A stretch of 45,861 nt of DNA from a virus. The stretch covers positions 1-45,861 of the IMG/VR virus record IMGVR_UViG_3300017605_000233, one strand, 5' to 3'. Below are positions 6,872-10,809 of this stretch, piece by piece (position 1 is the stretch's first letter; every line of letters starts with the position of its first letter). A program made the position numbers and the translations under genes. Under the pieces are notes generated by a model. The model saw only the letters and a list, made by a program, of their open reading frames with translations, made no database searches and had not been told where the DNA came from.

Positions 6872-7177
6872 ATGAGAAAAAGTCAAGTTATTCAGTTAGT
6901 ATTAGTATCAGCAGCTTTAGTTGCTTGCCATAAAGACAGGGAAAAAGAAAGAGAAGATGAATATTATGGCAGAGGTTCAAATGTAAGAACAACTACAAAT
7001 GTTTATCATCATGGAGGATTTTGGTATGCAAGACCATACACTAGTAGTCATACATATCATGTAATACATACTAGTAGTCCTTCAAGATCTTCAAGTTATT
7101 CTTCTGGTTCTCATAGCTATTCATCTAGTAGTAGAGGGGGGTTTGGTTCTAGTGCTCACTTTTCATCAGGGTCATAA
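6872..7177 (+). CDS. Ser/Tyr/His-rich lipoprotein
   Basis: This 101-aa protein has a lipoprotein signal ending in the lipobox LVAC (Cys near residue 19), then charged KDREKEREDE, then a low-complexity Ser/His/Tyr/Gly-rich tail (SSYSSGSHSYSSSS). Its stop overlaps the start of the ATP-grasp gene by one base. Pairing of a short Ser-rich lipoprotein (DUF1190/YgiB-YjfM type) with a glutathionylspermidine-synthase-like enzyme (YgiC/YjfC type) is known in bacteria. I infer the same pairing here from position and composition, not from alignment. Confidence 0.6.
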   Translation: MRKSQVIQLVLVSAALVACHKDREKEREDEYYGRGSNVRTTTNVYHHGGFWYARPYTSSHTYHVIHTSSPSRSSSYSSGSHSYSSSSRGGFGSSAHFSSGS

Positions 7178-8301
7178 TGAAGAGAGTTATAACTACACCT
7201 AGAGTTGGTTGGCAACAAAAATTAGAAGAAAGTGGATTTGGATTTCATACTACAGATGTTAACTATTGGGATGAATCTAAACACTATTCTATTACTTCTC
7301 AAGAAGCAGATGCTATTTATTACGCTACAGAAGAATTGTGGGAGATATCTCTTACAGCTGTTCAACATGTTATTGATAAAAAACTATATCATAAGTTTCA
7401 TATTCCTGAGTTTATGTGGCAGCATATAGAGGATTCATGGAATAATGATGTTCCTTCTATTTATGGAAGATTTGATTTAGTTATCAAAGAAGATGGTAGT
7501 ATCAAAATGTTAGAGTTCAATGCTGATACTCCAACATCATTATTTGAAGCAGGAGTTATTCAATGGCAATGGCTACAGGATAAATTCAAGGATAAAGATC
7601 AGTTCAACTCTATTCATGAACAATTGATTGAATACTGGGTTTATCTTAAACCTTATTTAAATCCTGGTACATTGTATTTCTCTTGTATTAGAGATAGTCT
7701 TGAAGATTTTACAACTGTAGAATATATGAGAGATTGTGCTATTCAAGCAGGTATAGATACTGAACTCATCTTTATAGATGAGATTGGTTGGAATGGTCAA
7801 TCATTCACTGATTTGAGTGAGAGAAGTATCAATAATCTATTTAAACTTTATCCTTGGGAATGGCTTGTGAATGAAGAATTTGGTACAAATGTGCCTAAAA
7901 CAGAAACTTTATTCATTGAGCCATCTTGGAAGATGATTTTATCTAACAAAGCCATTTTACCTATTCTGTATGAACTATTCCCTAATAATAAATATCTCTT
8001 AAAAGCATACTTTGAAAAAGGAAGATTAAGTAGCTATGCTAAAAAACCTTTATTATCTAGAGAAGGAGCTAACATTAAGATTTATGAAAATGGAGTTCTT
8101 ACAGAAGAAACAGAAGGAGAATATGGAGAAGAAGGGTTCATCTATCAGGAACTATGTAAATTACCTGAATTTGGTAATGACAAAACATTAGTGGGATCTT
8201 GGATAGTGGGTCAAAAACCTGTAGGAATAGGATTTAGAGAATCTTCTACATTTATATCTGATGATAAAAGTAGGTTCGTACCACACTTAATAGAAGATTA
8301 A
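7177..8301 (+). CDS. glutathionylspermidine synthase-like ATP-grasp ligase
   Basis: This 374-aa protein matches the C-terminal synthetase region of glutathionylspermidine synthase and the stand-alone YgiC/YjfC enzymes. Visible elements are YGRFDLVI then EFNADTPT (113-120, nucleotide/Mg-binding region), FIEPSWKMILSNKAILPILY, the YLLKAYF segment, and a Gly/Glu-rich loop (EGEYGEEGFIYQELC) before a final GSWIVG strand. The family forms amide bonds to a carboxylate using ATP; the substrate here is unknown and the Cys amidase domain is absent. It is coupled to the upstream lipoprotein. YjfC-type genes in bacteria sit beside PspA-like and lipoprotein genes, similar to this block. Confidence 0.8.
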   Translation: MKRVITTPRVGWQQKLEESGFGFHTTDVNYWDESKHYSITSQEADAIYYATEELWEISLTAVQHVIDKKLYHKFHIPEFMWQHIEDSWNNDVPSIYGRFDLVIKEDGSIKMLEFNADTPTSLFEAGVIQWQWLQDKFKDKDQFNSIHEQLIEYWVYLKPYLNPGTLYFSCIRDSLEDFTTVEYMRDCAIQAGIDTELIFIDEIGWNGQSFTDLSERSINNLFKLYPWEWLVNEEFGTNVPKTETLFIEPSWKMILSNKAILPILYELFPNNKYLLKAYFEKGRLSSYAKKPLLSREGANIKIYENGVLTEETEGEYGEEGFIYQELCKLPEFGNDKTLVGSWIVGQKPVGIGFRESSTFISDDKSRFVPHLIED

Positions 8302-8306
8302 TTTTA

Positions 8307-8338
8307 TTAATTCACTGATAAGTGCTTTCACATGAAAG
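8307..8338 (+). promoter_or_regulatory. conserved leader with hairpin before tRNA-like element 1
   Basis: A segment TTAATTCACTGATA-AGTGC is followed by the hairpin CTTTCA/TGAAAG (8325-8338). The same arrangement occurs at 10299-10333 with a different stem (CCCCTCA/TGAGGGG) but the same CACATG apex, so the stem varies by compensation. Confidence 0.55.
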
Positions 8339-8339
8339 A

Positions 8340-8408
8340 GGGGGAGTTCGTCTAATGGTAGTGTGCGCTCTTAATTGAGAAATATAGGTTCGAATCCTAT
8401 ACTCCCCC
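8340..8408 (+). tRNA. tRNA-like element 1, degenerate, isotype unclear
   Basis: A GGGGGAGT/ACTCCCCC acceptor stem (8340-8347 with 8401-8408) and a perfect T arm (ATAGG, loop TTCGAAT, CCTAT; 8384-8400) are intact. A D-loop-like TAATGGTA lies at 8353-8360. The D stem does not pair well, and the anticodon region offers only CTC/GAG around TTAATT. The total is about 69 nt and no CCA is encoded. A Lys-like CTCTTAA loop is present but its stem fails. It is either a decayed tRNA or a tRNA mimic used for RNA processing. Confidence 0.45.
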
Positions 8409-8446
8409 ACTGATTATTAATAAATTTTAAACAAAAATCAAACATT

Positions 8447-9418
8447 ATGAAAAATCCAAAAGTTTTAGGTATTATTATTTTATTGTGTGTAATTGGTCTA
8501 GGAGGCTATAAATATTACACTATCAAACATCCAGAAGCAATTCAAGCTGTTGTTCAAAATCAATCTTTGGCTGATGGTGGAAGTATTGTTTCTGATATCA
8601 TTAAGCCTTCTTCAAGTTTTACTGTAGATGTAGAGAACCCTGTTGATTTTACTAAAATGGGTGTTATTGAAGTGGGTGCTTCAGGATTCAATTGCTTTGT
8701 AGTTAAAGTGGACAAAGAAGACAGATGGGCTTTAGACTATAAAGAATTTGGTGAGTCTTTAGCTTATGAAGGATTTATGTCAGTAGATGATGTAAAGCTA
8801 GGATTGAAGAAATACATTGGAGCTATTGCTGAACATGGTGTTAATGGAAGAAATATCCATTTTGTTATGTCTTCAGGAGCTCTTAAGAATCCTAAAACTA
8901 AATTGATTGTAGAATCAATTAAGAAGATGGGATATGTTGTTAATGAAGTTACTGCTACTCAAGAAGGACAATATGCTTTTATGGCTCTACTTTCTAAGAG
9001 TTATAGAGATAATTCATTTACTGTAGATATAGGTTCAGGAAACACTAAAGTTACTTGGTATGAAAACGGTAGAATTAAATCTCTAGAAGGACCAGGAGCT
9101 AAGTATAGTCAAAATAACTTATCAAATGAGGAAGCTTATAAACAGATAACTGATCTTGTTAATAAAGTACCTATGGAAAGAAGACAACAATGTTTTATTA
9201 TTGGAGGTGCTCCATTTAAAATGGCTAAAGAATCTAGAAATGGTGAAGAAAGATTCACTCTTTTGAAATCTCCTGAAGATTATAATGCTAATGGTAATGA
9301 TAAGATGATTGCAGGTATTAATATCTATAAAGCAATTTTTGATGCTTCTAAGACAGACAAATTCATCTTTGACTGGGATTCTAATTTTACAATTGGATTC
9401 TTACTAACTCTTAACTAA
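8447..9418 (+). CDS. membrane-anchored Ppx/GppA-like (ASKHA) ATPase
   Basis: This 323-aa protein has an N-terminal transmembrane anchor (residues 5-22) and a linker rich in Ser/Val. An actin/Hsp70/Ppx-type nucleotide-binding fold follows: phosphate-1 strand VIEVGASGFNCFVV (73-86), phosphate-2 motif VDIGSGNTK (193-201) and adenosine-type FIIGGAP. The ATEEG-like TQEGQYAF is typical of exopolyphosphatase/GppA proteins. It may bind or hydrolyse a phosphate polymer or nucleotide at the membrane. It is paired with the next coiled-coil gene (1-nt gap), and the pair is flanked by two tRNA-like elements. Confidence 0.7.
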   Translation: MKNPKVLGIIILLCVIGLGGYKYYTIKHPEAIQAVVQNQSLADGGSIVSDIIKPSSSFTVDVENPVDFTKMGVIEVGASGFNCFVVKVDKEDRWALDYKEFGESLAYEGFMSVDDVKLGLKKYIGAIAEHGVNGRNIHFVMSSGALKNPKTKLIVESIKKMGYVVNEVTATQEGQYAFMALLSKSYRDNSFTVDIGSGNTKVTWYENGRIKSLEGPGAKYSQNNLSNEEAYKQITDLVNKVPMERRQQCFIIGGAPFKMAKESRNGEERFTLLKSPEDYNANGNDKMIAGINIYKAIFDASKTDKFIFDWDSNFTIGFLLTLN

Positions 9419-9419
9419 T

Positions 9420-10289
9420 ATGACACCAAAAATTGATTTAACAAATCCAACACAAAAGTTTATTGCTGCTGGATTTATAGGGGTGGTTTTACTTATTCTC
9501 TATTATCTATTACCACCATTAGTTGTTATTCTAAGTAATCTTTATTTAGTTGTAGGATTATTAATTCCTGTTGCATTTGTATGTCTATATCCATCATTTG
9601 TATGGGATACATTCAAGGAGCTAAGTTGGAATCTAACTAAAAGTATGATATCTAAGAACAAGCTTGGATATATGTATCGTTATCATGATTACTTATTGAT
9701 GAGAATAGGAAAATTAGAGAATAATGTTACTAATGTTACTGCTGCTAAGATAGGATTACAGAAGATGATTAATGATACAGGTAAACGTGTAGCTAAAGGT
9801 AAAGCTGATTATGTTTCTTATGAAAAACAAGGAGCTAGTAAATTAGCTCTATCTTCTTTAGCTAATAAAGTAACTGTGGATGAAAATCAACTTAAAGTAT
9901 TTCTACCTCAATTTACTAGTGTAGAGAGTAATGAGAAGTATTTATTAGAATTACTTGATTTCATGAGAGTAGATGCTGAACAATTGAAGTATACAATTGA
10001 TGCAAAAGCTAGTGAATTTAAGATTCTAGAACAAGTTGCTGAAGCTACTGGTAATGCTAAAGAATTCTTAAAAGGAGCTACTCCTGAGTTTAAAATATTC
10101 CAAGAATCTTTAACACAACTTGAAGCATCAGCAAATCTTTACACAGCTAAGATTTCTAATTTTGAAAGAGAGGCTAAGCCTCTAATGGAAAGAATGGCTT
10201 TAGATAAGACTATTTCAGAAGATGAAGGATTAAGACTTATTGAAGAGTTCAAGAACAGTACTAAAGGTATTGACTTTAAAATAGAATAG
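9420..10289 (+). CDS. membrane-anchored coiled-coil protein
   Basis: This 289-aa protein has two closely spaced transmembrane helices (about residues 15-33 and 38-58), then a long mostly helical region with coiled-coil character (about 85-285; many Leu/Lys/Glu). The shape is reminiscent of PspA-like envelope-stress proteins attached to a membrane hairpin, but no sequence hallmark of PspA is certain. It is co-transcribed with the upstream ATPase and probably its partner at the inner membrane. Confidence 0.6.
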   Translation: MTPKIDLTNPTQKFIAAGFIGVVLLILYYLLPPLVVILSNLYLVVGLLIPVAFVCLYPSFVWDTFKELSWNLTKSMISKNKLGYMYRYHDYLLMRIGKLENNVTNVTAAKIGLQKMINDTGKRVAKGKADYVSYEKQGASKLALSSLANKVTVDENQLKVFLPQFTSVESNEKYLLELLDFMRVDAEQLKYTIDAKASEFKILEQVAEATGNAKEFLKGATPEFKIFQESLTQLEASANLYTAKISNFEREAKPLMERMALDKTISEDEGLRLIEEFKNSTKGIDFKIE

Positions 10290-10298
10290 TTTGGTTAA

Positions 10299-10333
10299 TT
10301 AATTCAATGACACAGTGCCCCTCACATGAGGGG
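10299..10333 (+). promoter_or_regulatory. conserved leader with hairpin before tRNA-like element 2
   Basis: TTAATTCAATGACAC-AGTGC is followed by CCCCTCA/TGAGGGG (10318-10333). It matches the 8307-8338 element, with stem bases exchanged on both sides while the apex CACATG is kept. This supports a selected RNA structure. Confidence 0.55.
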
Positions 10334-10337
10334 GTTT

Positions 10338-10400
10338 GGCAGTACATAGGTAATGATGGTAAAATAATATCCATTAGAAGTTCGATTCTTCTTACTGCCA
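10338..10400 (+). tRNA. tRNA-like element 2, truncated, isotype unclear
   Basis: The acceptor is GGCAGTA (10338-10344) with TACTGCC (10393-10399) and discriminator A. The T arm is AGAAG, loop TTCGATT, CTTCT (10376-10392). Between them are only 31 nt: no D stem, and a single possible stem GATGG/CCATT around an 11-nt loop. It is too short for a canonical tRNA. Like element 1, it keeps the half recognised by RNase P/Z and EF-Tu but not the decoding half. Confidence 0.4.
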
Positions 10401-10422
10401 CTAAACTTAAAATAAATAAATT

Positions 10423-10809
10423 ATGTCACACACAATTAATGAATCAGCAAAGTATATCCATGATGCTTATGGAGTGAGTATGTCTCATTTAGATGAGATT
10501 ACAGAAAAAATGGCACACATATGTGGTTTAGCTACATATGGTAAAGAACCTTCAGGATTTTTAGCTAAAAAGGTTCAAGAAACCTTCAGTAAAGAAGATC
10601 TTGAAATGATTGCTACAATGTTTTTAATTAAAACTATAAATACAGCAAATGATGAAGAACCAGATGAAGATTGTCAATGTCCTTCTTGTAAAACTAAAAG
10701 AGGAGAAGAAGGAGGAATATCTTCTATTATAGCAAAACTTGAAAAGGACTTTCCTGGAGCTAAAGTAATGGCTTTTAAAGTTCCTAAAGATGGTAAAACA
10801 AACTGTTAA
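10423..10809 (+). CDS. hypothetical protein with Cys cluster
   Basis: The 128-aa protein has a helical N-terminal domain (residues 1-70), then an acidic stretch followed by CQCPSCK (about 87-93), which could bind a metal with the C-terminal Cys. Family unknown. It begins the gene run after the second tRNA-like element. Confidence 0.55.
   Translation: MSHTINESAKYIHDAYGVSMSHLDEITEKMAHICGLATYGKEPSGFLAKKVQETFSKEDLEMIATMFLIKTINTANDEEPDEDCQCPSCKTKRGEEGGISSIIAKLEKDFPGAKVMAFKVPKDGKTNC

Follow-up and report, generated by a model that had tools for sequence, protein, structure and literature searches.

Two tRNA-like elements behind a repeated leader hairpin in a phage genome: possible processing elements retaining the acceptor/T half of a tRNA

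Introduction

Mitochondrial transcripts are divided by tRNA punctuation, in which RNase P and RNase Z excise the tRNAs and thereby release the mRNAs. The acceptor/T half of a tRNA is the part bound by these two enzymes, by the CCA-adding enzyme and by EF-Tu, and also by some synthetases. The open literature yielded no account of such punctuation in phages. The HDV-like theta ribozymes, which lie beside tRNAs in phages of Bacteroidota and Bacillota, have been proposed to take part in tRNA processing at the 3' trailer (PMC10879173).

We describe here two intergenic units, each made up of a leader with a hairpin and a tRNA-like element, from a virus record of 45,861 bases that was analysed over its whole length (the window). 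No near DNA relative was present in the phage collection, and no close relative was found when one was sought by DNA and by the two genes lying between the elements. One window protein is closest to proteins of the 462-kb phage LR756500 and of the Cellulophaga phages phi17:2 and phi4:1, and further window proteins match several large IMG/VR contigs.

Results

Placement of the two units

The same-strand intergenic gaps at 8302-8446 and 10290-10422 contain one leader and one tRNA-like element apiece, each unit starting 6-9 nt past the upstream stop codon and ending 22-37 nt short of the next start codon. The gene upstream of the first unit (7177..8301, +) belongs to the glutathionylspermidine synthase family (Pfam PF03738, E 6.8e-140; phrog_6215). 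Between the units lie two orphan genes on the same strand: 8447..9418, with a weak Ppx/GppA-like match below the cutoff and no detectable homologue in related phages, IMG/VR or bacterial genomes, and 9420..10289, directly upstream of element 2, for which profile and homologue searches likewise detected no homologue in related phages or IMG/VR. This gene pair, spanning 8447-10289 and flanked by the leader units, looks as if it had been recently acquired. The gene downstream of element 2 (10423..10809, +) had no family match. Both elements therefore show the position between two same-strand genes that characterizes tRNA punctuation. Use at most junctions of a transcript, a second mark of such a system, is not seen in the window, where the remaining same-strand gene junctions have neither leader nor tRNA-like element, so that only two of many carry one; other junctions carry clear intrinsic terminators.

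Structure of the tRNA-like elements

The initial annotation had assigned perfect acceptor and T arms to both elements, and this assignment holds, with Watson-Crick pairing throughout. In element 1 (8340..8409, +) the acceptor stem GGGGAGT/ACTCCCC occupies 8341-8347 and 8401-8407, with an optional additional pair G8340-C8408, and the T arm ATAGG-TTCGAAT-CCTAT lies at 8384-8400. The corresponding parts of element 2 (10337..10400, +) are the acceptor stem GGCAGTA/TACTGCC (10338-10344 and 10393-10399), extended by U-1:A73, and the T arm AGAAG-TTCGATT-CTTCT at 10376-10392. Each element has, as a canonical tRNA would, all seven acceptor pairs, all five T-arm pairs and a consensus T loop.

The absence of a proper D or anticodon arm was also borne out, with the qualification that element 1 keeps a canonical 7-nt anticodon loop. 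In the Rfam alignment the D stem of element 1 (GUCU/GUGU) consists of three G-U pairs and one mismatch in place of 3-4 sound base pairs, and its anticodon stem is broken by a 3-nt deletion, but the loop CUCUUAA (CTCTTAA at 8368-8374) is canonical, of lysine type with anticodon CUU, and in register; U8, G18G19 and A21 are retained as well. Element 1 is clearly descended from a real tRNA, because this lysine-type loop is still in register, and it is similar to the tRNA L022:11176 found in a related phage. Element 2 is further from a tRNA. Its middle of 31 nt forms one 5-6 bp hairpin with an 11-nt loop (5 bp in RNAfold), and RNAfold gives neither a D arm nor a 7-nt anticodon loop of the U33 type.

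That these are not ordinary tRNAs is supported by the broken D and anticodon stems (Rfam alignment, RNAfold) and by ARAGORN, which reported no tRNA in the window. The Rfam tRNA model (RF00005) divides the two: element 1, with 33.5 bits, exceeds the cutoff of 29, and element 2 is left unmatched at the gathering cutoff.

Over both elements all 24 minihelix pairs are Watson-Crick and none is G-U. The elements differ at 7 of the 12 minihelix pairs, every difference being a double change with pairing kept, which counts as covariation only if they are paralogues; paralogy itself is suggested by the common leader and the near-equal spacing from leader to T loop. If they are paralogues, the seven paired changes would imply selection on the minihelix. 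Chance is excluded as the source of such arms, because a filter requiring all seven acceptor pairs, all five T-arm pairs and a TTCRANY loop matched 97 times in 1.45 Mb of phage loci and not once in 1.39 Mb of DNA shuffled by a Markov procedure; the comparison set, being chosen by perfect arms, says nothing of how rare damaged arms are.

The leader and its hairpin

Each element was held by the initial annotation to be preceded by TTAATTCA-TGA-AGTG and a hairpin with CACATG at its apex, and this was confirmed. In copy 1 the motif, TTAATTCA-C-TGA-TA-AGTG (8307..8324, +), begins 6 nt past the upstream stop codon and is followed by the hairpin CTTT-CACATG-AAAG (8325..8338, +), which stops 1-2 nt short of the acceptor stem. 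In copy 2 the motif, TTAATTCA-A-TGA-CAC-AGTG (10299..10317, +), begins 9 nt past the stop codon, and the hairpin CCCCT-CACATG-AGGGG (10318..10333, +) stops 3-4 nt short of the acceptor stem. The pattern TTAATTCANTGAn0-4AGTG matched the window twice against 0 expected (100 shuffles), the leader blocks agree at 21 of 21 positions, and TTAATTCA is separated from the T loop by 82 nt in copy 1 and by 81 nt in copy 2. In both units the hairpin adjoins the predicted RNase P site, with a gap of 1-4 nt.

Outside the hexamer, the stem at the leader apex has 4 Watson-Crick pairs in copy 1 and 5 in copy 2, or one more in either copy when the closing C-G is included, as against 0-1 pairs at the nine other CACATG sites of the window. 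For any hexamer, stems of at least 4 pairs occur at 0.74% of positions (P=0.0074) and stems of at least 5 pairs at 0.28% (P=0.0028), giving a joint chance for both leader hairpins of approximately 2e-5. When the two stems are aligned at the apex they have four pairs in common, of which two are doubly changed (U-A to C-G) and two are the same; copy 2 has one extra. The compensatory exchange reported initially is therefore real, comprising two double changes with the copy 2 stem reading CCCCT/AGGGG; the conclusion drawn from it, selection on hairpin structure, is plausible in view of the joint chance and has two copies as its basis, because the leader accompanies no tRNA of any relative and no relative is close enough for the covariation to be followed.

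Relatives were searched for the leader by pattern and by block score. None of approximately 213 other phage tRNA-likes has it upstream (best block score 16/21; random windows reach 17), and of seven related records five lack the short motif AGTG-n-CACATG altogether, while the other two have one stray partial match each. IMG/VR yielded no tRNA-linked leader match, and among the matches listed for a broad leader pattern none had CACATG within 30 nt. Absence of the leader from relatives, which the initial annotation had named as evidence against itself, weakens its claim without refuting it, since no close relative was found at all. A comparable hairpin (at least 5 bp with at least 2 G-C pairs, ending no more than 5 nt from the acceptor) stands beside approximately 8 of approximately 185 other phage tRNA-likes.

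Several other identities for the leader were considered and rejected. It matched no Rfam ribozyme family at E values up to 5 and gave nothing convincing among other Rfam RNAs (RAGATH-22, 20.1 bits versus 120.3; SpF41, 30.5 versus 52). A terminator scan was empty there, and no strong U run follows either hairpin. Pairing of the loop CACAU with GUGUG, conceivable in element 1, is impossible in element 2.

Phage tRNA-likes with a constant minihelix and a hypervariable middle

The GSP-synthase relative G002 (L009), which shares genes with the window phage, has seven tRNA-likes whose acceptor/T arms are 87-100% identical and whose middles, of 39-117 nt, are 27-61% identical. The T-arm/acceptor 3' sequence of these elements matched at least 120 IMG/VR stretches, with up to six copies in 5 kb. 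We refer to the resulting set as the AGTCAGG family (L009:4822-7266 and L299-L418, e.g. L308, L314, L343 and L346); its arms are RGTCAGG/CCTGAC (acceptor) and ACAGG/CCTGT (T arm), and the D arm is often of Leu type. A canonical cloverleaf is missing in 146 of 156 distinct elements from IMG/VR, in which the middles measure 22-159 nt, although Rfam calls a number of the family tRNA. As judged by eye, several middles recur between phages. They are only mildly structured, since MFE z-scores average 0.01 for whole elements and -0.52 for the payload alone. Both window elements have other arm sequences. The rule that the family follows, a conserved minihelix with a free middle, nevertheless makes a non-decoding role of the window elements more credible, though their own sequences do not place them in the family. 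At L009:3989-4177, a few hundred bases upstream of the L009 tRNA-like array, lies a group I intron (Rfam RF00028, 61 bits).

Phage tRNAs with a displaced D loop and other unusual forms

In ten phage tRNAs from different contigs, the anticodon arm follows straight after U8A9, is enclosed by a 3-bp stem (CCC/GGG, CUC/GAG, ACC/GGU, CAG/CUG or CGG/CCG) and is succeeded by the D-loop-like sequence TAANTGG. In the enclosing stem 96.7% of cells pair and all three pairs are changed on both sides. The structure as a whole outscores all 500 shuffles and all slid controls, in a set picked partly by pairing, so that the choice of members itself accounts for helices 1, 3 and 4 and partly for helix 2. The covariation supports what appears to be a distinct class, with anticodons UAU, GAU, CAU, UCU and ACG. 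A model built from the ten (R1) scores members at 54-91 bits and other tRNAs at no more than 36; the Rfam tRNA model gives 28.8 bits for G001:24870 and 31.3 for G002:107783. Members lie at L009:10061-10137, L234:2084-2160 (-; G001:24870-24946), L283:18369-18445 (-; positions 118368-118444 of the public record LR756500.1), L288:6195-6270, L297:13264-13337, L269:469-546 (-), L278:2863-2938, L411:4519-4595 (-), L353:936-1016 and L362:4249-4325 (-), and R1 also found, outside the building set, L339:4462-4538 (-; 85 bits) and L309:11216-11295 (-; 54.8 bits). A permuted-tRNA reading of the window elements was rejected, as R1 gives element 1 24.2 bits compared with at least 54 for members and does not list element 2. 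The form does not figure in the portion consulted of a review of non-canonical tRNAs (PMC7609411), and no report of it or of the AGTCAGG family was found in the open literature, which is weak evidence that both groups are novel.

Other unusual tRNAs were noted. Four in LR756500.1, at L281:4552(-), L282:6381(-), L283:8507(-) and L283:8115(-), have D-region inserts of approximately 60 nt, all ending near TTACAG and several with ATAACTT...AAGTTAT-like arms able to pair; they are possibly a small type of intron, and two of them gave no Rfam intron match. At L291:5317 there is a D-armless phage tRNA-Arg with a 36-nt middle and the anticodon arm ATCTGT-CTACGAA-ACAGAT (anticodon ACG), and in a related phage ARAGORN gives three tRNAs with two-base anticodons (L012:11377, 12306 and 14715).

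Discussion

Our tentative preference is for reading the two units as tRNA-derived, non-decoding processing elements that are cut by RNase P and RNase Z, the leader hairpin capping the 3' end of the upstream mRNA. Each unit would then consist of the leader and a half-tRNA derived from a tRNA gene, placed within a run of same-strand genes; the acceptor/T half has been kept, and normal codon reading would be lost because the D and anticodon halves are gone. Cleavage by RNase P at the junction of hairpin and acceptor would leave the upstream mRNA with a 3'-terminal hairpin, which may shield it from exonucleases, and a cut after the discriminator by RNase Z or exonucleases would free the next mRNA 22-37 nt before its start codon. 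The units would in effect be tRNA punctuation in a phage. The sequence shows the anatomy of the units, their departure from the cloverleaf, the perfect minihelices, the repeated leader and the intergenic placement, and from these we infer transcription, cleavage, hairpin protection and any benefit. In favour of processing, both elements combine flawless acceptor and T arms with damaged D and anticodon stems, the leader hairpin adjoins the predicted RNase P site in both, and each unit sits close behind a stop codon and shortly ahead of the next start. Against it stand the canonical anticodon loop, U8, G18G19 and A21 of element 1, as in a recently decayed tRNA, the presence of the leader in no relative and in two copies, and the other same-strand junctions that have neither leader nor tRNA-like element. 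Moreover, the D and anticodon arms could have been lost in two or three events that spared the rest.

A second explanation is that two tRNA genes once shared a leader (a promoter, processing or mRNA 3'-end element), that both tRNAs have ceased to function, and that drift has so far left their acceptor and T arms unhit. We regard decay as nearly as likely as a processing role. The fit of element 1 to the Rfam tRNA model, its in-register CUCUUAA beside an anticodon stem that has lost 3 nt and a D stem of G-U pairs and a mismatch, and its similarity to L022:11176 are all congruent with decay, and related phages hold both intact tRNAs and many odd ones. The lack of a single G-U among 24 Watson-Crick minihelix pairs is not, and drift would not leave leader blocks alike at every position and hairpin pairing maintained through double changes. 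Among the three roles originally proposed, RNase P/Z processing marks thus stand slightly ahead of decayed tRNAs, and translation mimicry has no positive evidence.

It is improbable that the elements are atypical translating tRNAs, comparable to the D-armless tRNAs of mitochondria. Element 1 would read AAG (Lys) through its in-register loop, and L291:5317 provides a phage example of a D-armless tRNA whose anticodon arm is proper, but in element 1 the deletion breaks the anticodon stem, and element 2 is without a 7-nt U33 loop. Least probable of all is that the leader serves as a promoter or operator of the phage, its palindromic CACATG hairpin a putative DNA site for protein binding and the tRNA-likes passengers: the 21 conserved leader bases do exceed the tRNA bodies in conservation and TCACATGA is palindromic, but promoter-like sites near the units show no excess (33 found, 29.9 expected), the leader is found in the window only before tRNA-likes, and an operator needs a fixed sequence, not compensated arms.

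Returning to the processing reading, we consider rather doubtful, though worth stating, its broader form: that this phage uses non-decoding half-tRNAs behind hairpins abutting RNase P sites as dedicated mRNA punctuation, within a larger group of phage tRNA-likes, apparently not described before, that keep the acceptor/T half and have lost or replaced the anticodon half. Should RNase P and RNase Z indeed excise the units, phages would have arrived independently at the way in which animal mitochondria divide polycistronic transcripts, with an added hairpin to complete the 3' end of the upstream mRNA. Many annotated phage 'tRNAs' would then be non-decoders, with a bearing on codon usage and on evasion of tRNA-cutting defences. 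Even if the window elements are decaying, the AGTCAGG family and the displaced-D-loop class are directly testable.

Among described RNAs, the tRNAs of Rfam RF00005 share with the window elements the acceptor and T arms and, in element 1, U8 and the D-loop GG, whereas sound D and anticodon stems are absent here and element 2 falls below the gathering cutoff. The Streptococcus sRNA SpF41 (Rfam RF02435) likewise combines an acceptor and T arm with a short hairpin and lacks a D arm, but element 1 reaches 30.5 bits against its cutoff of 52 and there is no terminator hairpin at the window elements. The pseudo-tRNA tRNA-Other of B. cereus is also a tRNA-derived RNA with no role in translation; it differs in lying on a bacterial chromosomal island, and the portion consulted of its description mentions no leader hairpin (PMC3399842). 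Theta ribozymes resemble the leader as an extra RNA element adjoining phage tRNAs (PMC10879173), yet the window leader is 5' and matches no Rfam ribozyme. The AGTCAGG/CCTGACT tRNA-likes of phages retain acceptor/T halves around non-canonical middles, as the window elements do, but differ from them in the sequences of both arms, in a D arm that is usually of Leu type and in the lack of a common leader hairpin. With mitochondrial tRNA punctuation the window shares tRNA-like units between same-strand genes and acceptor/T halves fit for both enzymes; mitochondrial tRNAs also decode, whereas the phage units have lost the anticodon half and gained a repeated hairpin leader.
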